From contig JAPLXO010000004.1 in the NCBI GenBank assembly GCA_026396065.1, forward strand, positions 82,387 to 124,529: a stretch of 42,143 bases of DNA, read 5' to 3'. The notes under the pieces are model-generated. The model was not told where the DNA came from. It saw only the letters and a list, made by a program, of their open reading frames with translations, and searched no databases. Shown here in pieces: positions 27,753-38,666 of this stretch. A program made the position numbers and the translations under genes. Within the stretch, counting starts at the first letter, position 1. Each line of letters begins with the position of its first letter. Origin of the DNA: Candidatus Nomurabacteria bacterium (GTDB taxonomy: Bacteria; Patescibacteriota; Minisyncoccia; Phycocordibacterales; UBA9973).

Positions 27753-28322
27753 CTAGTGATTATGGTCACAAGTTTCTATTTTTCCATCTTTTTTACTCTC
27801 TTCTACTAGGTGGTGTATCAAGTCACCAATTAGTAAAAATACTAATAGCTCAATGATTCCATGCCAAGTTTCTATTTTTGTTGCAAAACCATGAATACTA
27901 ACACCTAATATTAAGCCGACAATCCACACAAGAGAAACTGAGAATATACAAGTTAATATTTTCCACCCTTTTTTTATTTCTGTAAATGGTATTAACAATC
28001 CCCATAACAATAAAAATAATACAGGCTGACGAACCAATTCATGAAGGAATACCGCAATAATATTATTATTCCAACTTATTCCATCTATAGTGCTGTGTGC
28101 TAGGTTGAATAAGATAAAAATTCCAAGTGTTAAAATAAAACCTTTTCCTTTTGAATGGAAATGACAAGTCAATTCACCGAAAATATATCCAACTATGGTT
28201 ATAAAAATAACCAAAAATATATTATTTAAAACTTCATCCCAATGTATAGAAGTAGCTAATATTATGCTAATAGCTGTAACTATTGCAATAATGTTGAAAG
28301 AAATATACTTTTTTATATTCAT
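27753..28322 (-). CDS. Multi-TM membrane protein, third gene downstream of cobalamin riboswitch
   Basis: 5-6 predicted TM helices, His-containing C-terminus (ETCDHNH), 35 nt after the toroid gene. Confidence 0.55.
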   Translation of the reverse strand: MNIKKYISFNIIAIVTAISIILATSIHWDEVLNNIFLVIFITIVGYIFGELTCHFHSKGKGFILTLGIFILFNLAHSTIDGISWNNNIIAVFLHELVRQPVLFLLLWGLLIPFTEIKKGWKILTCIFSVSLVWIVGLILGVSIHGFATKIETWHGIIELLVFLLIGDLIHHLVEESKKDGKIETCDHNH

Positions 28323-28357
28323 ATATTTACTTTACCACAAAGATAACCTAGTTGTAA

Positions 28358-30502
28358 CTATTTAGTTTTTTTACTAAAACGATATATTAGAGTTCCAATT
28401 AAAAATATTAAAGCAATAATAGAAAAAATTATTGGAATTTTAATCTCACTATTTTTTACTGAAGCAGTTAAATTTATTGGTTCTATTTGCTGAGCTTGTT
28501 TTATTGATTGTTTTGCGTTTGTCTTATTTTCTTTTTTAATTTTTACCTTAGCTATTATATTTTTTGTGAGAACAACTTTCTTTTCTTCTATTGTTAGTTT
28601 TGGTGAGCAAAGAGTGCTATCTATTTCACATGTTATTTTAGGTAATGATAGATCTGGTGTAGGGCAAAGAGTAACGTCTGTAGCACAAGTTTGTGTTTGT
28701 GTTGGTTTTGAAACTGTATGAAAAATTGAATTCCAAGTTTTCCCTAATACTCCCGGAATTGCATAACTAGTTGACCAAATTCTATTCGATTGAACAGAAT
28801 TATTTGTTACTCCACCATCAGCTATTTGATTACTTGCTAAATAATCAATTCCAGTATGTCCATTTTTTGTCCAAGTAGTGTTTATTGCATTTGATGCTTG
28901 CAGTGCCCAACTAGTAGAATCAACATTACCCCATCCACCATCAGGATTTTGTGATGTTGAAAGATAATTACTCGCTTCATTTAATGCTGAAGAAACCTCA
29001 GCAATACTAGAAAATTGTGACAATGCTTGAATAGTAGCAGATGTCATATCAATACCACCATCCCATGAGCCATCAGATTTTTGTTTTGAAATAATATAGG
29101 CAATATCTTTTGAAATAATATTATCGTTTACGGTGTAGCCAGAATTTTCAAGAGCAATGAGAGCAAAAACATCATCGTTAATTTGTGATGAATCACCGAA
29201 TTGTGTGCCATCAAAAGCATTTACAATTGGTGTAACAAAATCTGATCCATGAAACGAATACGGGTTTTGATTTAGTGCTAGAAGAGCCATTGTGTGACGC
29301 TCGTTGCTTGTCAGGGTTGAACTCACAGAATTGTGAGCAGTCATGTAATCTAAAATATTATTTTTTACAGAGTCAGAAACATTTCCAGCTACGAGGCCGA
29401 TACTTGCCCAGTCGGTATACATATCATTTTCTTCAAATGAACCGTCGGATTTTTGAACTCCAATCAAATATGCTACAGCATTTGGAACACTAAAAGTTAC
29501 TGGTGGTGGATTTCCTCCACCACAACCACCACATGGAGGTGGGTCGATCTGTGTTGTTTCTTGTACTGAAATAATAACTGGATTTGCATCGAGTGATTCA
29601 TCTTTGTGTGATTTGATTTTAAAATCACCCACCACTGTAGTAGGATAGGTAACTTTTCCGTCAGCGTCTGTTGTAAAAGTTTCTGATCCAATATATACGT
29701 CAGCTCCTTCAAATGGAAGCCATACTGCATTCCAAGAAGAGTCTAGACCAAAAATTTGTACTGTAATCGTGATAGTGTCACCAACTGTCGGTGTAAGACT
29801 ATCTACTAAAATCTTTGTCGGGTTAATATCATAATTTAAAAGAATTACATCTCCTGAATTTAAAATATATTTATTTAGTGCTGATTGACCATATTCCAAA
29901 TTGGCAAACCATCCCCAATAGACACCATTATTATTTTCATTGTTTGTAACATTGTTTATTGAATTAAGAAATGCGTCGTCTCCCCACCAAGACCAATCTG
30001 ATGTAGCTACTGCTTGTTTTACTGCGCAGTAAGCAGAGAAGGAAAGTGTTCCTGTATTGTCACTGTCACAAGCTGTTACATTTATATCTTGGTTATAAAT
30101 AGTTTGAGAGTTTGTCTCTATATCTAGGTGAATAGTTATTGTAGGGGCTGGAGGAGCTTGTGTCACTGTTATGTTTCGGACAGCCGATGCTTGATTACCT
30201 GCTGCATCAAAAACTAAATATTTTACAACATAGTCTCCAGCTATACTCATATCTACGTAATTATAAGTTTGTATATTAATAGTAATATCTCCATCGATAT
30301 CATCACTAGCTGTAGCACCAGCATCTATATATTCTGTTCCTTGCATTATTGATATGCTTACTTCTCCATTTAAAGAAATAACTGGTGGAATAATATCTGG
30401 ATCACCAGCAAAAACTTTTGTTAGTGGAATACACAATGCTATTGTTAGAATAATAACCGATAATTTTGTTTTTATATTTTTCATAAATTTATAATGATTC
30501 AC
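28358..30502 (-). CDS. Surface-anchored protein: HYR/DUF5011-like, DUF4430-like, and alpha/alpha-toroid (prenyltransferase/squalene-cyclase-type repeats) domains; transcobalamin-like parts
   Basis: IPPVISLNGEVSISIMQGTEYIDAGATASDDIDGDI (DUF5011-like); YWGWFANLEYGQSALNKYILNSGDVILLNY (DUF4430-like); QKSDGSWDGGIDMTSATIQAL, SQNPDGGWGNVDSTSWALQA, NQIADGG toroid repeats; C-terminal TM anchor. Confidence 0.7.
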   Translation of the reverse strand: MNHYKFMKNIKTKLSVIILTIALCIPLTKVFAGDPDIIPPVISLNGEVSISIMQGTEYIDAGATASDDIDGDITINIQTYNYVDMSIAGDYVVKYLVFDAAGNQASAVRNITVTQAPPAPTITIHLDIETNSQTIYNQDINVTACDSDNTGTLSFSAYCAVKQAVATSDWSWWGDDAFLNSINNVTNNENNNGVYWGWFANLEYGQSALNKYILNSGDVILLNYDINPTKILVDSLTPTVGDTITITVQIFGLDSSWNAVWLPFEGADVYIGSETFTTDADGKVTYPTTVVGDFKIKSHKDESLDANPVIISVQETTQIDPPPCGGCGGGNPPPVTFSVPNAVAYLIGVQKSDGSFEENDMYTDWASIGLVAGNVSDSVKNNILDYMTAHNSVSSTLTSNERHTMALLALNQNPYSFHGSDFVTPIVNAFDGTQFGDSSQINDDVFALIALENSGYTVNDNIISKDIAYIISKQKSDGSWDGGIDMTSATIQALSQFSSIAEVSSALNEASNYLSTSQNPDGGWGNVDSTSWALQASNAINTTWTKNGHTGIDYLASNQIADGGVTNNSVQSNRIWSTSYAIPGVLGKTWNSIFHTVSKPTQTQTCATDVTLCPTPDLSLPKITCEIDSTLCSPKLTIEEKKVVLTKNIIAKVKIKKENKTNAKQSIKQAQQIEPINLTASVKNSEIKIPIIFSIIALIFLIGTLIYRFSKKTK

Positions 30503-31019
30503 TTAATTTCCACTCGACAACATCACCGACTTTTGGCACATAAGAAGAAATCCCGAGATTCGCTTCTATGCCATTAATATAATAAATTAAATACTTTCCA
30601 TTTCCTTCTTTTAAATTTCCAATACTACTGATAAAAAATCCCATTCCCGAATAATTTTTCCCTGTGAAATTTATCTGCCCAGCATTTTGCCCTGCCAATA
30701 AAATATCGTAGAGACTAGAATTATTTTGTATTGGTAAATTTATATTTGTATCAGCAATTTTTAATGTGATTACGTTTGTGTTTAAAGGAACAAGAACCTC
30801 ACCCGCCTTCGGCACCCTCTCCTTATTAAGGAGAGGTGCTCCTCGCAAGGACGGTCCTTGCGAGGAGTTTTGTTTCAAAGTGCCTGATAAGGTATTTAAG
30901 GTTATGTTTTTTATTTCTGGAGCTTCTACTGTTTTATGTGAAGAAAAAATAAAAATACTAAAAATAACTATAAAAATAATTGCTAAAATGATTATGTATT
31001 TTTTATTTGGATTTTTCAT
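30489..31019 (-). CDS. DUF4430 (transcobalamin-like C-terminal) domain lipoprotein/membrane protein
   Basis: N-terminal TM; SLYDILLAGQNAGQINFTGKNYSGMGFFISSIGNLKEGNGKYLIYYINGIEANLGISSYVPKVGDVVEWKL matches DUF4430 pattern; directly after riboswitch. Confidence 0.7.
   Translation of the reverse strand: MKNPNKKYIIILAIIFIVIFSIFIFSSHKTVEAPEIKNITLNTLSGTLKQNSSQGPSLRGAPLLNKERVPKAGEVLVPLNTNVITLKIADTNINLPIQNNSSLYDILLAGQNAGQINFTGKNYSGMGFFISSIGNLKEGNGKYLIYYINGIEANLGISSYVPKVGDVVEWKLSESL
30793..30868. repeat. Palindromic element inside ORF 30489-31019
   Basis: cctcacccgccttcggcaccctctccttattaaggagaggtgctcctcgcaaggacggtccttgcgaggag. Confidence 0.75.
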
Positions 31020-31029
31020 TTAAAAAAGA

Positions 31030-31205
31030 AAAAACTCCTACAGAGAGGAGTTGCCGTGCCACATTTCAAAATGAAATATGAAAATTCCTGCTCGGGACGA
31101 AATTTATAATTGGTATTCGGACTTTCTAAATATAATTTAGATTACCGTAGCGGCACTGTGGAGGATTTTCACCTCGCTTCCCCAATTACAAAATATTAAC
31201 TTGTT
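31030..31205 (-). ncRNA. Cobalamin (B12) riboswitch with 3' intrinsic terminator
   Basis: RC: GGGGAAGCGAGGTGAAAATCCTCCACAGTGCCGCTACGGTAA...AGTCCGAATACCAAT (conserved core), followed by ACTCCTctctgtAGGAGTtttttt. Confidence 0.92.
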
Positions 31206-31286
31206 AAACGCTCTACCAGTATACTCTACACAAATTTTTATGCAAATATTTCTTTAAAATCATTTTTTAATCTATAATGCATATCT

Positions 31287-32501
31287 ATGCAAAAAAGGAC
31301 TTGGTTTTTATTTTTAACTATTTTAATAGATATGATCGGTATTGGGGTTCTAATACCTGTAATTCCACAATTGCTCGGTGAGCCGAGTTCTCCGGCATTT
31401 TTGCTTGGTCCGGGCCAGCAACATCTAGGTTTCATTTTACTTGGATTTTTAATGGCTGTGTACCCGATAGCTATGTTTTTTGCTTCACCAATACTCGGTA
31501 GTCTTTCTGATAAATATGGTCGCCGACCAGTATTACTCATTTCTATTTTAGGAACTGCTATCGGTTATTTTCTTTTTGCATATGCCATAATGACAAAAAA
31601 TATCCCATTACTTTTTATTTCTCGAATGTTTGATGGGCTAACAGGAGGGAATATAGCCACAGTACAGGCAGCCCTCGCTGATCAGGTGAAGCCAGAAAAT
31701 CGCGCCAGAGCTTTTGGTATGATTGGTGCGGCTTTTGGCCTTGGCTTTATTCTCGGTCCATTTATCGGAGGTAAACTCGCTGATCCAAGTCTCGTGCCAT
31801 GGTTTAGCGCGACAATACCATTTATCTTTGCTGGAATTTTGGCCTTGATAAATTTGGCTTCAATTTATTTTTTCTTTTCAGAAACCAATGAGCATATCGA
31901 TAAAGATAGAAAAATTAATTTCTTTGGCGCAATTGGTAATATTATGAAAGCAAAAAAGATGGTTGAAATTCGTCATCTTTTGATTGTATCATTTTTGTTT
32001 AATGCTGGTTTTGCATTTTTTACTTCCTTTTTTAATGTCTACTTAACCACTAAGTTTAATTTTAGTGTTGGCCAAGTAGGAAACTTTTTTGGCTATTTTG
32101 GAGTATGTATTGTATTTACTCAGTTGGTAATAGTACGTCTTGTTTCAAAAAAATACGACAATATTTCAATTTTACGTTTTGCTTATCCTGCTACTGGTAT
32201 TGCTTTATTTTTGTATTTATTACCGACACAGTCATGGTGGATTTTCGTGATTGCTTTAATTTTTGCTATTCCAAACGGTCTTCAACAAGCAAATTTTTCT
32301 GCTCTTCTTACTAAACGTATTGATCCTACAAAAAGAGGTGAGGTGCTAGGTATTTCGGCTTCTGTAAACTCTGTAGGACAATCATTACCTCCACTTCTAG
32401 CTGGAGTAATAGCAGTAGTTTTTGCTCCTTGGGCGCCAATATTTATCGCTGGACTTTTTGTAATAGGGGCGGGAATAGTCTTTAGATTTACAGAAAAATA
32501 A
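31287..32501 (+). CDS. MFS transporter, TetA/TCR-like subfamily
   Basis: IDMIGIGVLIPVIPQLL, GSLSDKYGRRPVLLIS, RMFDGLTGGNIATVQAALAD, 12 TM pattern. Confidence 0.9.
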   Translation: MQKRTWFLFLTILIDMIGIGVLIPVIPQLLGEPSSPAFLLGPGQQHLGFILLGFLMAVYPIAMFFASPILGSLSDKYGRRPVLLISILGTAIGYFLFAYAIMTKNIPLLFISRMFDGLTGGNIATVQAALADQVKPENRARAFGMIGAAFGLGFILGPFIGGKLADPSLVPWFSATIPFIFAGILALINLASIYFFFSETNEHIDKDRKINFFGAIGNIMKAKKMVEIRHLLIVSFLFNAGFAFFTSFFNVYLTTKFNFSVGQVGNFFGYFGVCIVFTQLVIVRLVSKKYDNISILRFAYPATGIALFLYLLPTQSWWIFVIALIFAIPNGLQQANFSALLTKRIDPTKRGEVLGISASVNSVGQSLPPLLAGVIAVVFAPWAPIFIAGLFVIGAGIVFRFTEK

Positions 32502-32667: not shown

Positions 32668-33279
32668 ATGGAAAGTTTACAAATTCTTTCGTCGATATTT
32701 TTATTGGCGAATAAGTACTTTTGGTTAAAAAGAAAACCAAGCGGATGGATACACGGAATCATTGGAATGATTATTCTGACAGTTTGTTTGTATATACAAA
32801 TGGTTTTCAAAAACGAATCAAATCTTTGGATTATGATTGTGAGTAATCTCACAGCTATTCCAGTAATGATGTATGGCTACCTTATAGCTGTAACAAAAAA
32901 TGGAAGTAGGTTTGAAAACTTGCTAAACAGATGGAACCTCACTTTTAAAATAATTGTTATTGTTTTGACTTTCTTTGTTTGTATATTGATTCTAATAGAA
33001 GCGATTACGACATCATTGTTGATCATACAATTTATTTTAACTAGCATGGCTTCAATCGGTACGCTTTTGCTCGCATTCAACAAAAGATTTACAAACATGA
33101 GCGGTTGGATATTGTTTTTGCTGACACATATATTATCAGCATATACAATGTTTGAAGTGCATGCATCAGTATTGGCTTGGTGCCAAGTAATCTCATGCTT
33201 CTTTGCACTCGTAGGAGTGTACCAAGAAGCAAAAAACAAAAATTTGGAAGTACAACTTCCGGACAACTGCTCTTTATAA
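32668..33279 (+). CDS. Multi-TM protein, possibly PnuC-like vitamin transporter
   Basis: 6-7 TM helices; small Trp-containing TM protein; family assignment weak. Confidence 0.4.
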   Translation: MESLQILSSIFLLANKYFWLKRKPSGWIHGIIGMIILTVCLYIQMVFKNESNLWIMIVSNLTAIPVMMYGYLIAVTKNGSRFENLLNRWNLTFKIIVIVLTFFVCILILIEAITTSLLIIQFILTSMASIGTLLLAFNKRFTNMSGWILFLLTHILSAYTMFEVHASVLAWCQVISCFFALVGVYQEAKNKNLEVQLPDNCSL

Positions 33280-35148: not shown

Positions 35149-35790
35149 TTACTCATACCTCGGGGCTTCTTCGGTAATACCTGCGACATGGTTTGAGGCG
35201 CGGGCGAAGGCGTAGAGGACTGATGAGAGGCGGTTTAAGTATGCGAGAGTTTGGGGGTTGATGGATTTTTCCCCTCCTTGTGGAGGAGGGGTGTCTCGGT
35301 AATCCGAGACGGGGTGGTGATTCTGGTTTTGGGTGGTGATTTTTTCTTTCTGCTCTTCTGCAACACCCACTACTCGGCGTTCTGCTCGGCGGGCGATGGT
35401 GCGAGCGATGTCGCAGAGTGATGCGAGCTCTGTACCACCAGACACGAAAAAAGTTTTAATCGGTGGAAGCATTTTTTCGATGCCATCGATAATTTCTTCG
35501 AGCCATTTCACTTTTTCTTCAGTGATAGTTTTATCAGCGCCAGCGAGTTCTGCTTGAATGATAAATAAATCTTGCTGAATTCTGTCGATAGTCTCAGAAA
35601 GTTTTATTTCTTGATCAGATAAAGTAAAAGCCACCTTTAAAGTGGCAGCTTTTACTTTTACCAAACCTAGAAAAGAATTTATTTCATCCATAGAGCCGAG
35701 GGCTTCGGCTATCGCACTACTTTTTGATATACGTTGATCGCATCCAAAAGTTTTAGTTGTTCCATTGTCTCCTTTTCTGGTATATAGCAT
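35149..35790 (-). CDS. PduO-type cob(I)alamin adenosyltransferase
   Basis: MLYTRKGDNGTTKTFG, AEALGSMDEINSFLG, IQQDLFIIQAELAG, FFVSGGTELASLCDIARTIARRAERRV, LAYLNRLSSVLYAFAR. Confidence 0.92.
   Translation of the reverse strand: MLYTRKGDNGTTKTFGCDQRISKSSAIAEALGSMDEINSFLGLVKVKAATLKVAFTLSDQEIKLSETIDRIQQDLFIIQAELAGADKTITEEKVKWLEEIIDGIEKMLPPIKTFFVSGGTELASLCDIARTIARRAERRVVGVAEEQKEKITTQNQNHHPVSDYRDTPPPQGGEKSINPQTLAYLNRLSSVLYAFARASNHVAGITEEAPRYE
35267..35322. repeat. Palindromic element in frame in adenosyltransferase gene
   Basis: ttcccctccttgtggaggaggggtgtctcggtaatccgagacggggtggtga, encodes HHPVSDYRDTPPPQGGEK. Confidence 0.7.
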
Positions 35791-35802: not shown

Positions 35803-38085
35803 TTAAATTTCGCAAAGTCCTCCTACGCAAGCGAGCTCTTTCTTTACTTCTGTCTCATCTTCTCTTTCATAAGTCACAATTTTTGAGAAATCAATTTCGC
35901 CAAGTCTTTCCTTCATCTCTTCGTATTTCTCTTTTGTAATAGCTTCATATGGAGCGAGCTGGTACACATGGTTTGAACGGGGAAGGAATGAAAGTCCTCC
36001 TACTATTTCCCAGTTTTCATAAATCCAATGAGCCACTTTTAGCCATTCATCTTCCCCGACAGAGATAGTCACAGAAGGATTGTGTTCAGTATAATGATTC
36101 TTCACGACTTTCCAGTGTTCTAACTGTCCAATAGCATCTACATCATCTTTACATATAGCACCCTCTGGGGCTTTAATTGGAAACTCCAATACAAATGTAG
36201 TAGCATTTTCTCTTGTTTGTCCTACTTCAGGGAAATGAGGTACTCCTTGGTCACGAAGCATTTTGAAAAGAGCGTCTGTAGTAGAAATACGAACACGTCG
36301 AATGTAATAAGGAGCATGGCGAGTATGCATACCAGAAGAGCAGTCCACAGTTTGTGAAGTATTTCCAGACGGCTTCACGCAAGTCACACAAGTGGATTGG
36401 TTTATACCAAATTTCTCAGCATATTTTTTATTTACTTTAACTGCTTCATTTTTTAACTTTTCTAGAATTTTTGGATCACGCACAAGAGCACAATCCCATT
36501 GACCTGTTATTGATACTCCTAGCAATCTTTCTTTTTCACAATTCTTTTTCCATTCTTTTGAAAGGTAAGGGAAGTATGTGAGTGTTGATTGGTATGTACC
36601 AAGAATTGTAGCTACACGAACTTTTTTTAATAAAGTTTCTTCTGTATCATCTGCACGTGCTACTACTTCTGAAAGATTACAAAATTGTTTTGATTGCAAA
36701 ATAATTTCTCCACAAGGATTTGTACCCCATGCTGGATAAATACCACCTTTGAATTGATCAAGTCGGCGCTTTGGTAAAGTATTTGCTAATCCTCCACGAT
36801 TAAATATTCCACGCTCTCCTGAACCAGATTTCATAAGAGCGATCCATTCATCTAGAAATTCTGTAGAACTTGGCTTTGTTAAATACACAGCAGAATTGTT
36901 TGCTAGCATTCTTTGTCCTTCATTTAAATAAAATTGTCCTTTCTTTGAATCACGAATCATTTCATCATCTAAATCAGAAAGAGAAATCATCGCACTTCTA
37001 CGTACTCCTCCAGCTACGACGCATTCACCAATTTTACAAATAATATCGTGCGCATCCATATTTGAAAGATGTCGTCCTTGTCTACGGAAAATTCTTTCAC
37101 GAGTGAATTCTAAAAGAGAACGAATTGGCTCAGGACCAGAACTTTTTCCTCCCATAGTTTTCAGACGTGAACCTGCTGGACGAATAAGAGAATAATCAAA
37201 ATTAATATCTCCACCTTCAAACCATGTTTTCATTCCTAATGCAAACGAATCTGCCCATCCTTCTTTACTGTCAGGTATTACATAATTAATTGCTTTCTTT
37301 CCATTTTGTTTTTGAATTTGTGGAAGAGCTTGAATATTTTCACTTTCTACAGACCATCCTACTCCAGTGCCACACATTGAGATATACATCACCTCTGCGA
37401 AGTCTTGGAAGCATCTAGGTGCAATAAATGAACAGTTGTAAGCACATACATTTGTTTTTCTAGCAGCCTTACCAGCAAACTGTAAAAGACGCATAGAAGG
37501 TAAGGATTCTTGGCTTAAAATAGCTTCACGAACTTCTTTATATTCTGCATCTGAAAGCTTTCCATTTATATTATCCTTCATAAAGTCCATATATCTTCCT
37601 ACTGTTTCTATCCATGTTTCACGGCGATCAGCTTCAGGAATCCATTTTGCATATGTACGATAATATACAAGTTCTGCTAAAGAATTACGAAAATATTTTT
37701 TACTTTCAGCAAAAAGCTCTTTTGTTTCTTCTGGAACAGAGCCTACTTTTTCACGAACGAGTGAACGCTCTTGTCGGTAAAGAATATATCCCTTAGCAGT
37801 ATTTACAAAAGCTGAATTTATTAATTCATTTTCTACAACATCTTGAATCATTTCAACTGTAGGAATAAAATTTTTAATTTTATTTTCTCTTTGAACTAAA
37901 AGAAGTTTATCCAAAACTTTTACCATCACTTTTTCTGCGCTACTTTCATCTCCTTCTTTTACAGATTGCATGGCACGAAAAATGGCACGTGTTACTCTTT
38001 TTTCATCAAAGGGAACAATTGTGCCATCTCTTTTTTGTATTTTCTGTAGTGGTGAATATTTTTTTGCATTCATTATGTTTTTCAT
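35803..38085 (-). CDS. nrdJ: Adenosylcobalamin-dependent (class II) ribonucleotide reductase, RTPR-like
   Basis: N-terminal ATP-cone, YNCSFIAPRCFQDFAEVMYISMCGTGVGWSVE, NPCGEIILQSKQFCNLSEVV, TCVKPSGNTSQTVDCSSGMH, C-terminal CVGGLC. Confidence 0.93.
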   Translation of the reverse strand: MKNIMNAKKYSPLQKIQKRDGTIVPFDEKRVTRAIFRAMQSVKEGDESSAEKVMVKVLDKLLLVQRENKIKNFIPTVEMIQDVVENELINSAFVNTAKGYILYRQERSLVREKVGSVPEETKELFAESKKYFRNSLAELVYYRTYAKWIPEADRRETWIETVGRYMDFMKDNINGKLSDAEYKEVREAILSQESLPSMRLLQFAGKAARKTNVCAYNCSFIAPRCFQDFAEVMYISMCGTGVGWSVESENIQALPQIQKQNGKKAINYVIPDSKEGWADSFALGMKTWFEGGDINFDYSLIRPAGSRLKTMGGKSSGPEPIRSLLEFTRERIFRRQGRHLSNMDAHDIICKIGECVVAGGVRRSAMISLSDLDDEMIRDSKKGQFYLNEGQRMLANNSAVYLTKPSSTEFLDEWIALMKSGSGERGIFNRGGLANTLPKRRLDQFKGGIYPAWGTNPCGEIILQSKQFCNLSEVVARADDTEETLLKKVRVATILGTYQSTLTYFPYLSKEWKKNCEKERLLGVSITGQWDCALVRDPKILEKLKNEAVKVNKKYAEKFGINQSTCVTCVKPSGNTSQTVDCSSGMHTRHAPYYIRRVRISTTDALFKMLRDQGVPHFPEVGQTRENATTFVLEFPIKAPEGAICKDDVDAIGQLEHWKVVKNHYTEHNPSVTISVGEDEWLKVAHWIYENWEIVGGLSFLPRSNHVYQLAPYEAITKEKYEEMKERLGEIDFSKIVTYEREDETEVKKELACVGGLCEI

Positions 38086-38666
38086 ATTTGTTTTGGATTT
38101 AAAATTTTTATAATATTTGGAACTTCCCCGCCTGCCATCGCTTCGCTCAGGCGATTGCGGGCAGGTAGTTTTTGATTTTCAATAATATATTTGTAGATGA
38201 GAGGAGAGAAGACTACCGCAAAACAAATATTACCAGTGAGATGAAGAATCGTGAATGGAATTTGTCCGGCTAGTGAGGCAGTGAAACTTTGGTGGAAAAA
38301 AAGTGGTCCGATAGTTAATCCTGTAATTGCGTCGTAGAAAATAGTGGCAAAAATTGCAAACTTTGCATAATTCCAAGCTTTATTTTTTTTATTTTTAAAA
38401 TACATTGTTGCGAAGAGTCCTAAAATTCCGTAAACAGTTGCTGTGATGAGTGTCCAAATGCCAACCTTGGCTGTAATAATATCGTAAAGAATAATACTTA
38501 AGAAACCAAACATAAATCCCGCCAGTTTTCCATAAGTTTTTGCAAATGGCATTTGCGTGGCGAGTAAGGGTTCGATATTGGGGGGACGAAATGGAATTAG
38601 ACGAAGTAAAAAACAAAAAATAAATCCGAGTACATATTTGAAATAATTTTTTGTATAATTTTGCAT
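38082..38666 (-). CDS. ECF transporter S component-like membrane protein
   Basis: 5-6 TM; PLLATQMPFAKTYGKLAGFMFGFLSIILYDIITAKVGIWTLITATVYGILGLFATMYFKNK typical of ECF S proteins; overlaps nrdJ start by 4 nt. Confidence 0.65.
   Translation of the reverse strand: MQNYTKNYFKYVLGFIFCFLLRLIPFRPPNIEPLLATQMPFAKTYGKLAGFMFGFLSIILYDIITAKVGIWTLITATVYGILGLFATMYFKNKKNKAWNYAKFAIFATIFYDAITGLTIGPLFFHQSFTASLAGQIPFTILHLTGNICFAVVFSPLIYKYIIENQKLPARNRLSEAMAGGEVPNIIKILNPKQI
38124..38168. repeat. Palindromic element in the 3' end of ECF S-like gene
   Basis: CCGCCTGCCatcgcttcgctcaggcgattgcGGGCAGG, encodes LPARNRLSEAMAGGEV. Confidence 0.75.

Follow-up and report, generated by a model that had tools for sequence, protein, structure and literature searches.

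An operon on contig JAPLXO010000004.1 of a Candidatus Nomurabacteria bacterium (assembly GCA_026396065.1) is preceded by a cobalamin (B12) riboswitch and encodes two candidate surface proteins, named here ORF C and ORF B (ORF, open reading frame). The analysed stretch of 42,143 nucleotides, positions 82,387 to 124,529 of the contig, is called the window below, and all coordinates of the locus refer to it. The genes of an S component of the energy-coupling factor (ECF) type, a class II ribonucleotide reductase (RNR) and an adenosyltransferase lie 4 kb upstream of the operon on the same strand. Together, these genes probably form a repressible module for B12 capture, import and adenosylation and for the synthesis of deoxynucleoside triphosphates in a B12 auxotroph. 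An earlier analysis of the DNA alone (the sequence-only reading) had proposed a B12 capture device similar to animal transcobalamin and intrinsic factor. This is the best-supported interpretation of the surface proteins: both domain types are present, there are fold and profile matches to the animal carriers, and the context is specific to B12; binding of B12 is predicted. The three operon genes were placed correctly in the sequence-only reading, and the upstream cluster was missed. The leader, the operon and the upstream cluster are all on the minus strand.

The genome holding the window is about 800 kb long and 97% complete. A search of genome contigs with ORF B matched a single named relative, a metagenome-assembled genome of Patescibacteria. 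The bacterium is probably host-dependent. A literature search, partial in its coverage, retrieved no report of such a module in Patescibacteria or in bacteria of the candidate phyla radiation.

Riboswitch leader

The aptamer (31103..31199) matches the covariance model of adenosylcobalamin (AdoCbl) riboswitches of the AdoCbl-II class, RF01689, over the full length of the model (positions 1-81 of 81), with 47.2 bits against the gathering cut-off of 36.5 (E=1.8e-8). Thus the B12 riboswitch suggested from the sequence is genuine, but its class is AdoCbl-II and not RF00174. The Infernal comparison with RF00174 that had been proposed gave 26.6 bits at this position, under the gathering cut-off of 31.5, and RF00174 was dropped as the class of the leader. 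In the aligned leaders of 20 relatives, two-sided compensatory changes are seen in 13 of the 26 predicted pairs. The alignment runs from the aptamer via a conserved CCCGAGCAG element to a terminator right before the start codon. In the window this intrinsic terminator, the candidate expression platform, is at 31033..31052, just before the start codon of ORF C. Of 28 homologous leaders scanned by a script, 26 contain a terminator-like hairpin, with 26 different stems; the control, 140 stretches taken at random from these loci, gave 3. The fold of the single leader sequence is not unusually stable (z -1.48), so that the case for the RNA is built on the covariance model and the relatives. A promoter-like site TTTGCA-N17-TATACT, identified by consensus match only, is located approximately 18 bases upstream of the riboswitch (31218..31246).

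Since the leader contains a terminator that is conserved in relatives, a transcription switch turned off by AdoCbl is its natural reading. AdoCbl would then repress transcription of the operon via the leader.

Surface proteins

ORF C (30489..31019) has an N-terminal membrane anchor (residues 4-32) and one DUF4430, or transcobalamin-like, beta domain at 30501-30716 (PF14478, 45.2 bits, cut-off 23.8). Hence the DUF4430-like protein expected after the riboswitch is indeed there. The profile of the ORF C family was compared with solved structures in PDB, and only intrinsic factor and transcobalamin were matched, both weakly (E 0.1-0.5). Within ORF C, the coding linker contains a near-perfect 14-bp inverted repeat (30838-30868) that has no other copy in the window; the linkers of the homologues in relatives L072 and L047 are apparently expanded likewise.

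ORF B (28358..30502) starts with a signal peptide, followed by an Ig-like domain (residues 42-113, 30164..30379; PF16403, 63.6 bits), a DUF4430 / transcobalamin-like beta domain (approximately residues 121-228, 29819..30142), a beta-rich linker domain, an alpha/alpha-toroid (approximately residues 339-594, 28721..29488; SQHop_cyclase_C, PF13243, 41.4 bits) and a C-terminal transmembrane (TM) anchor (residues 684-711 by hydropathy, 28370..28453). This agrees with the predicted large C-terminally anchored protein with a toroid and a DUF4430-like domain, the latter being weak. In the genome scan the DUF4430 domain has 24.4 bits (PF14478). Its strands are present in the AlphaFold2 (AF2) model, and in the ORF B profile the corresponding segment matches the beta domain of intrinsic factor (E=0.002). 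The toroid is all-helical in the model, and its predicted local distance difference test score (pLDDT) is mostly >95. Foldseek with the ORF B model retrieved squalene cyclases, complement TED domains and transcobalamin (8ixt, E=2.3e-5); comparison with transcobalamin, as had been recommended, thus gave matches for both proteins. The Cobalamin_bind family (PF01122) scores 12.5 bits on ORF B, below the cut-off of 25 (E=0.07).

Several W, D, N, Q and T positions of the toroid are invariant in 31 ORF B homologues, a pattern that could reflect a binding cavity. In about half of the relatives the C-terminus of ORF B has no clear TM segment and ends in an apparent amphipathic aromatic helix. Examples of a short helix of this type replacing the TM segment are L051, L054, L060 and L078.

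Upstream B12 cluster

The first gene of the cluster (38082..38666) encodes an ECF-type S component, a predicted B12 importer without a detectable EcfT partner. It matches PF07155 with 32.7 bits (cut-off 26.7), and its cysteine at residue 18 is invariant. The 23 best fold matches of its AF2 model, RibU, FolT, PanT and ThiT among them, are all S components or ECF complexes (best E=0.004). Its profile retrieved no PDB chain at E<=10, the profile being narrow (8 sequences) and the presence of BtuM among the chains unchecked. The genome contains no detectable CbiQ (EcfT), FecCD (BtuC type) or CbiC, all of which were found in control genomes; CbiC stands here for corrin synthesis, and other biosynthetic genes were not searched. 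Classical import of the BtuCD type and import by a full ECF transporter were dismissed because the genome gave no match to FecCD or CbiQ. Import is likely due to the S component, whose B12 specificity is deduced from the context only.

The second gene (35803..38085) encodes an AdoCbl-dependent ribonucleoside-triphosphate reductase, that is, a class II RNR. It scores 276.8 bits with TIGR02505, under the strict cut-off of 340, and is above the cut-off of PF21995. The nearest solved structure is that of RTPR (1l1l, E=2e-53), relative to which the NPCGE active-site stretch and the C-terminal cysteine pair are retained. The third gene (35149..35790) encodes a cobalamin adenosyltransferase of the PduO type (TIGR00636, 150.6 bits, cut-off 108.45; PF01923, 151.9 bits).

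Several genes separate the operon from the RNR cluster, including those of a tetracycline-efflux-like transporter of the major facilitator superfamily (31287-32501), a PnuC-like membrane protein (32668-33279) and a CAAX-protease-like protein. In another genome (G131:C6:8950-12327), the class II RNR match is interrupted by approximately 1.1 kb within one open frame of 1174 amino acids, which suggests an intein.

Conservation in related genomes

Co-occurrence was analysed in 149 related genomes, the one holding the window included. DUF4430 was found in 59 of these genomes, the S component in 62, a strong class II RNR match in 105, and an adenosyltransferase above the cut-off in 91. The exact riboswitch core is present in 46 genomes, and the reversed control pattern in one. 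DUF4430 co-occurs with the riboswitch core (Fisher test, 1.9e-20 in all genomes and 5e-9 within the genus), the S component (6.4e-19 and 1e-8), class II RNR (3.4e-7 and 6e-5) and the adenosyltransferase (6.9e-6 and 7e-6). The S component is present in 50 of the 59 DUF4430 genomes. Of 34 ORF C homologues, 26 are preceded by the core, and so the suggested association of the homologues with B12 riboswitches is confirmed. The arrangement of the riboswitch, ORF C and ORF B occurs in related genomes far beyond chance.

In L050, L052, L058, L065, L069, L072 and L079, all or most of the S component, RNR and adenosyltransferase genes are clustered with ORF C and usually with ORF B. In the more distant relatives L047, L066, L067, L068 and L088, the DUF4430 genes are found alongside a DUF6580 membrane protein. 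In two of these, L066 and L067, this pair is beside a class II RNR; in L067 the DUF4430 gene adjoins DUF6580 and is divergent from the genes of class II RNR and a BtuR-type adenosyltransferase. Alignment of the S component and DUF6580 groups, both of them S-component-like, by hhalign is suggestive, if weak (probability 13.6%, E 0.002). Retention of the riboswitch with ORF C and ORF B across two differing neighbourhoods is an argument independent of the Fisher values.

Similar riboswitches were observed upstream of other genes. In L076 (8827-12004, G092) an AdoCbl-II riboswitch directly precedes a pair of class I RNR genes (ATP-cone NrdB, NrdA), as if this B12-independent enzyme were kept for conditions of low B12. 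In L075 (2984-8648, G065) and L077 (2182-7687, G120), AdoCbl-II-like riboswitches with 37.9 and 33.3 bits, the second being below the cut-off, are followed by genes of a long low-complexity protein, a ClpB-like AAA ATPase and a TraD/VirD4-like ATPase. The low-complexity proteins of the two loci are barely similar. This set, apparently under B12 control, resembles secretion or conjugation systems.

The third gene of the operon, ORF A (27753..28322), starts 35 bp downstream of ORF B and encodes a six-segment membrane protein, accessory or unrelated, that matched no family. The multi-TM protein of the sequence-only reading is therefore real, but it is rare: ORF A occurs in 2 of the 149 relatives, itself included, and in a phylum-wide sample of 380 genomes only the window's own copy was found. 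Given these counts, ORF A was set aside by default as a core component; judging from its distribution, it is probably not a core part of the operon. In a near relative, L071 (G068), class II RNR, the adenosyltransferase and ORF A are kept, and DUF4430, the S component and an exact match to the riboswitch core were not found. This bacterium may obtain B12 by another way.

Proposed mechanism and alternatives

The proposed cycle would start when intracellular AdoCbl is low, so that transcription continues past the leader terminator and both surface proteins, ORF C and ORF B, are produced. After export they would stay anchored on the outside of the membrane. There, cobalamin or another corrinoid would be held by ORF B between the toroid and the DUF4430 beta domain, as it is in intrinsic factor and transcobalamin, and ORF C might serve as a relay or co-receptor with a second, separate beta domain. 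The captured ligand would be handed to the S component, predicted to operate without an EcfT partner. It would then be adenosylated by the PduO-type enzyme, and the resulting AdoCbl would be used by the class II RNR for deoxynucleotide synthesis. More tentatively, and with doubts prevailing, one may imagine a route free of any energy module in Patescibacteria of this genus, in which the two tethered intrinsic-factor-like receptors concentrate cobalamin from a host or a neighbour and pass it directly to the lone S component, so that deoxynucleotide synthesis, and with it replication, depends on captured B12.

If the module works as proposed, it would offer a concrete explanation of the way in which ultrasmall bacteria that probably depend on a host acquire an essential cofactor, and it would tie this uptake to the supply of DNA precursors. 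Moreover, bacterial relatives of human B12 carriers would provide material for studying how B12 is held by a toroid and a beta domain.

Several observations weigh against a B12 receptor. When the protein was scanned, the DUF4430 domain of ORF B did not reach the cut-off of Pfam (19.0 vs 23.8 bits). The toroid is closer to squalene cyclases than to transcobalamin both by sequence and by fold, and since the cyclases outscore transcobalamin, the toroid alone cannot identify the ligand. The AF2 model of ORF B residues 120-610 has pLDDT 92.5 but a predicted template modelling score (pTM) of 0.59; thus the domain folds are reliable, whereas the mutual arrangement of the toroid and the beta domain is not. 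The S component occurs without DUF4430 in 12 genomes, and so the receptors are not strictly required for its cargo. Finally, the Fisher tests count related genomes as independent, with shared ancestry uncorrected.

The cyclase similarity leads to the idea that ORF B is an exported enzyme akin to class II terpene cyclases, the operon making or modifying an isoprenoid; indeed, squalene-hopene cyclases and drimenyl diphosphate synthase are the best matches of the toroid by sequence and fold. However, the first aspartate of the DxDD catalytic motif is lost, NDD following I, V, E or D in the 31 homologues (the motif was aligned by eye), and the terpene cyclase reading of the toroid was rejected because this motif is not conserved. 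Further, the signal peptide and membrane anchor place ORF B outside the cell, and the riboswitch and RNR are a poor fit to such an enzyme, so that a cyclase is extremely improbable. That ORF B serves to attach the cell to a host, as an adhesin with a thioester domain or as a macroglobulin-like protein, with B12 control merely signalling the host environment, is highly improbable: the TED_complement match (22.5 bits), many fold matches to complement C3, C4 and TEP, the Ig-like domains and the surface anchor speak for it, but no cysteine is invariant across the 31 homologues, hence there is no conserved thioester, and there is linkage of a separate DUF4430 protein and the B12 genes. The TED reading of the toroid was rejected, as the thioester cysteine is not conserved.

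Another option is that the surface proteins are controlled by B12 but have a ligand other than complete cobalamin, for example cobalt, a cobamide precursor or a heme-like tetrapyrrole. B12 riboswitches elsewhere in bacteria also govern cobalt or nickel transporters (PMC2667541), and SLBB domains bind diverse ligands (PMC1796856). Yet cobalt alone would be of little use with CbiC not found in the genome, the genes nearby encode an adenosyltransferase and an RNR that depends on AdoCbl, and the toroid with a beta domain is the combination seen in B12 carriers; we consider this option unlikely. Finally, the importer that receives the ligand from ORF B and ORF C could be ORF A rather than the S component. 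No terminator was detected in the 35 bp between ORF B and ORF A, and the ORF A homologue in G068 is about 2 kb or less from the RNR and adenosyltransferase genes. On the other hand, its presence in only two relatives, its retention in G068 in the absence of DUF4430, the S component and the riboswitch core, and the S component accompanying DUF4430 in most genomes (50 of 59) make such a role quite unlikely.

Comparison with known systems

AdoCbl-II riboswitches (RF01689) share with the leader considered here an above-gathering score, full-length match and retained covariation. In this leader, the riboswitch has a terminator platform and would control DUF4430 surface proteins.

The toroid and the beta-grasp domain are common to ORF B and the animal proteins intrinsic factor and transcobalamin, as seen from the fold and weak profile matches. 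Unlike the animal carriers, ORF B has the beta domain before the toroid, Ig-like domains and a TM anchor, is below the Cobalamin_bind cut-off, and is accompanied by a stand-alone beta-domain protein, ORF C. The sequence-only reading had noted that this domain order differs from that in animals. It is not unusual in bacteria, where SLBB-toroid surface proteins have either order and are often accompanied by a paralogue encoded in the same operon (Burroughs et al. 2007, PMC1796856).

BtuM is a lone S component that imports B12 without EcfT (PMC6072759). The S component of the locus resembles it in having the ECF S-component fold in an organism with no EcfT detected; its narrow profile matched no solved chain, and its presumed B12 specificity follows from context.

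The bacterial SLBB-toroid operons generally, although not universally, contain CbiO/CbiQ, and B12 scavenging was predicted for them (PMC1796856). Shared features are export and surface anchoring, a DUF4430/SLBB beta-grasp domain fused to an alpha/alpha-toroid, Ig-like domains, a second SLBB protein in the operon and an apparent lack of B12 synthesis. The differences are that no CbiQ was detected in the genome considered here (CbiO was not searched for), and that the locus has an AdoCbl-II riboswitch and an S component with no EcfT detected, is linked to the genes of RNR and an adenosyltransferase, and comes from a different lineage. With these distinctions, the locus fits the receptor class predicted by Burroughs et al. 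2007 (PMC1796856).

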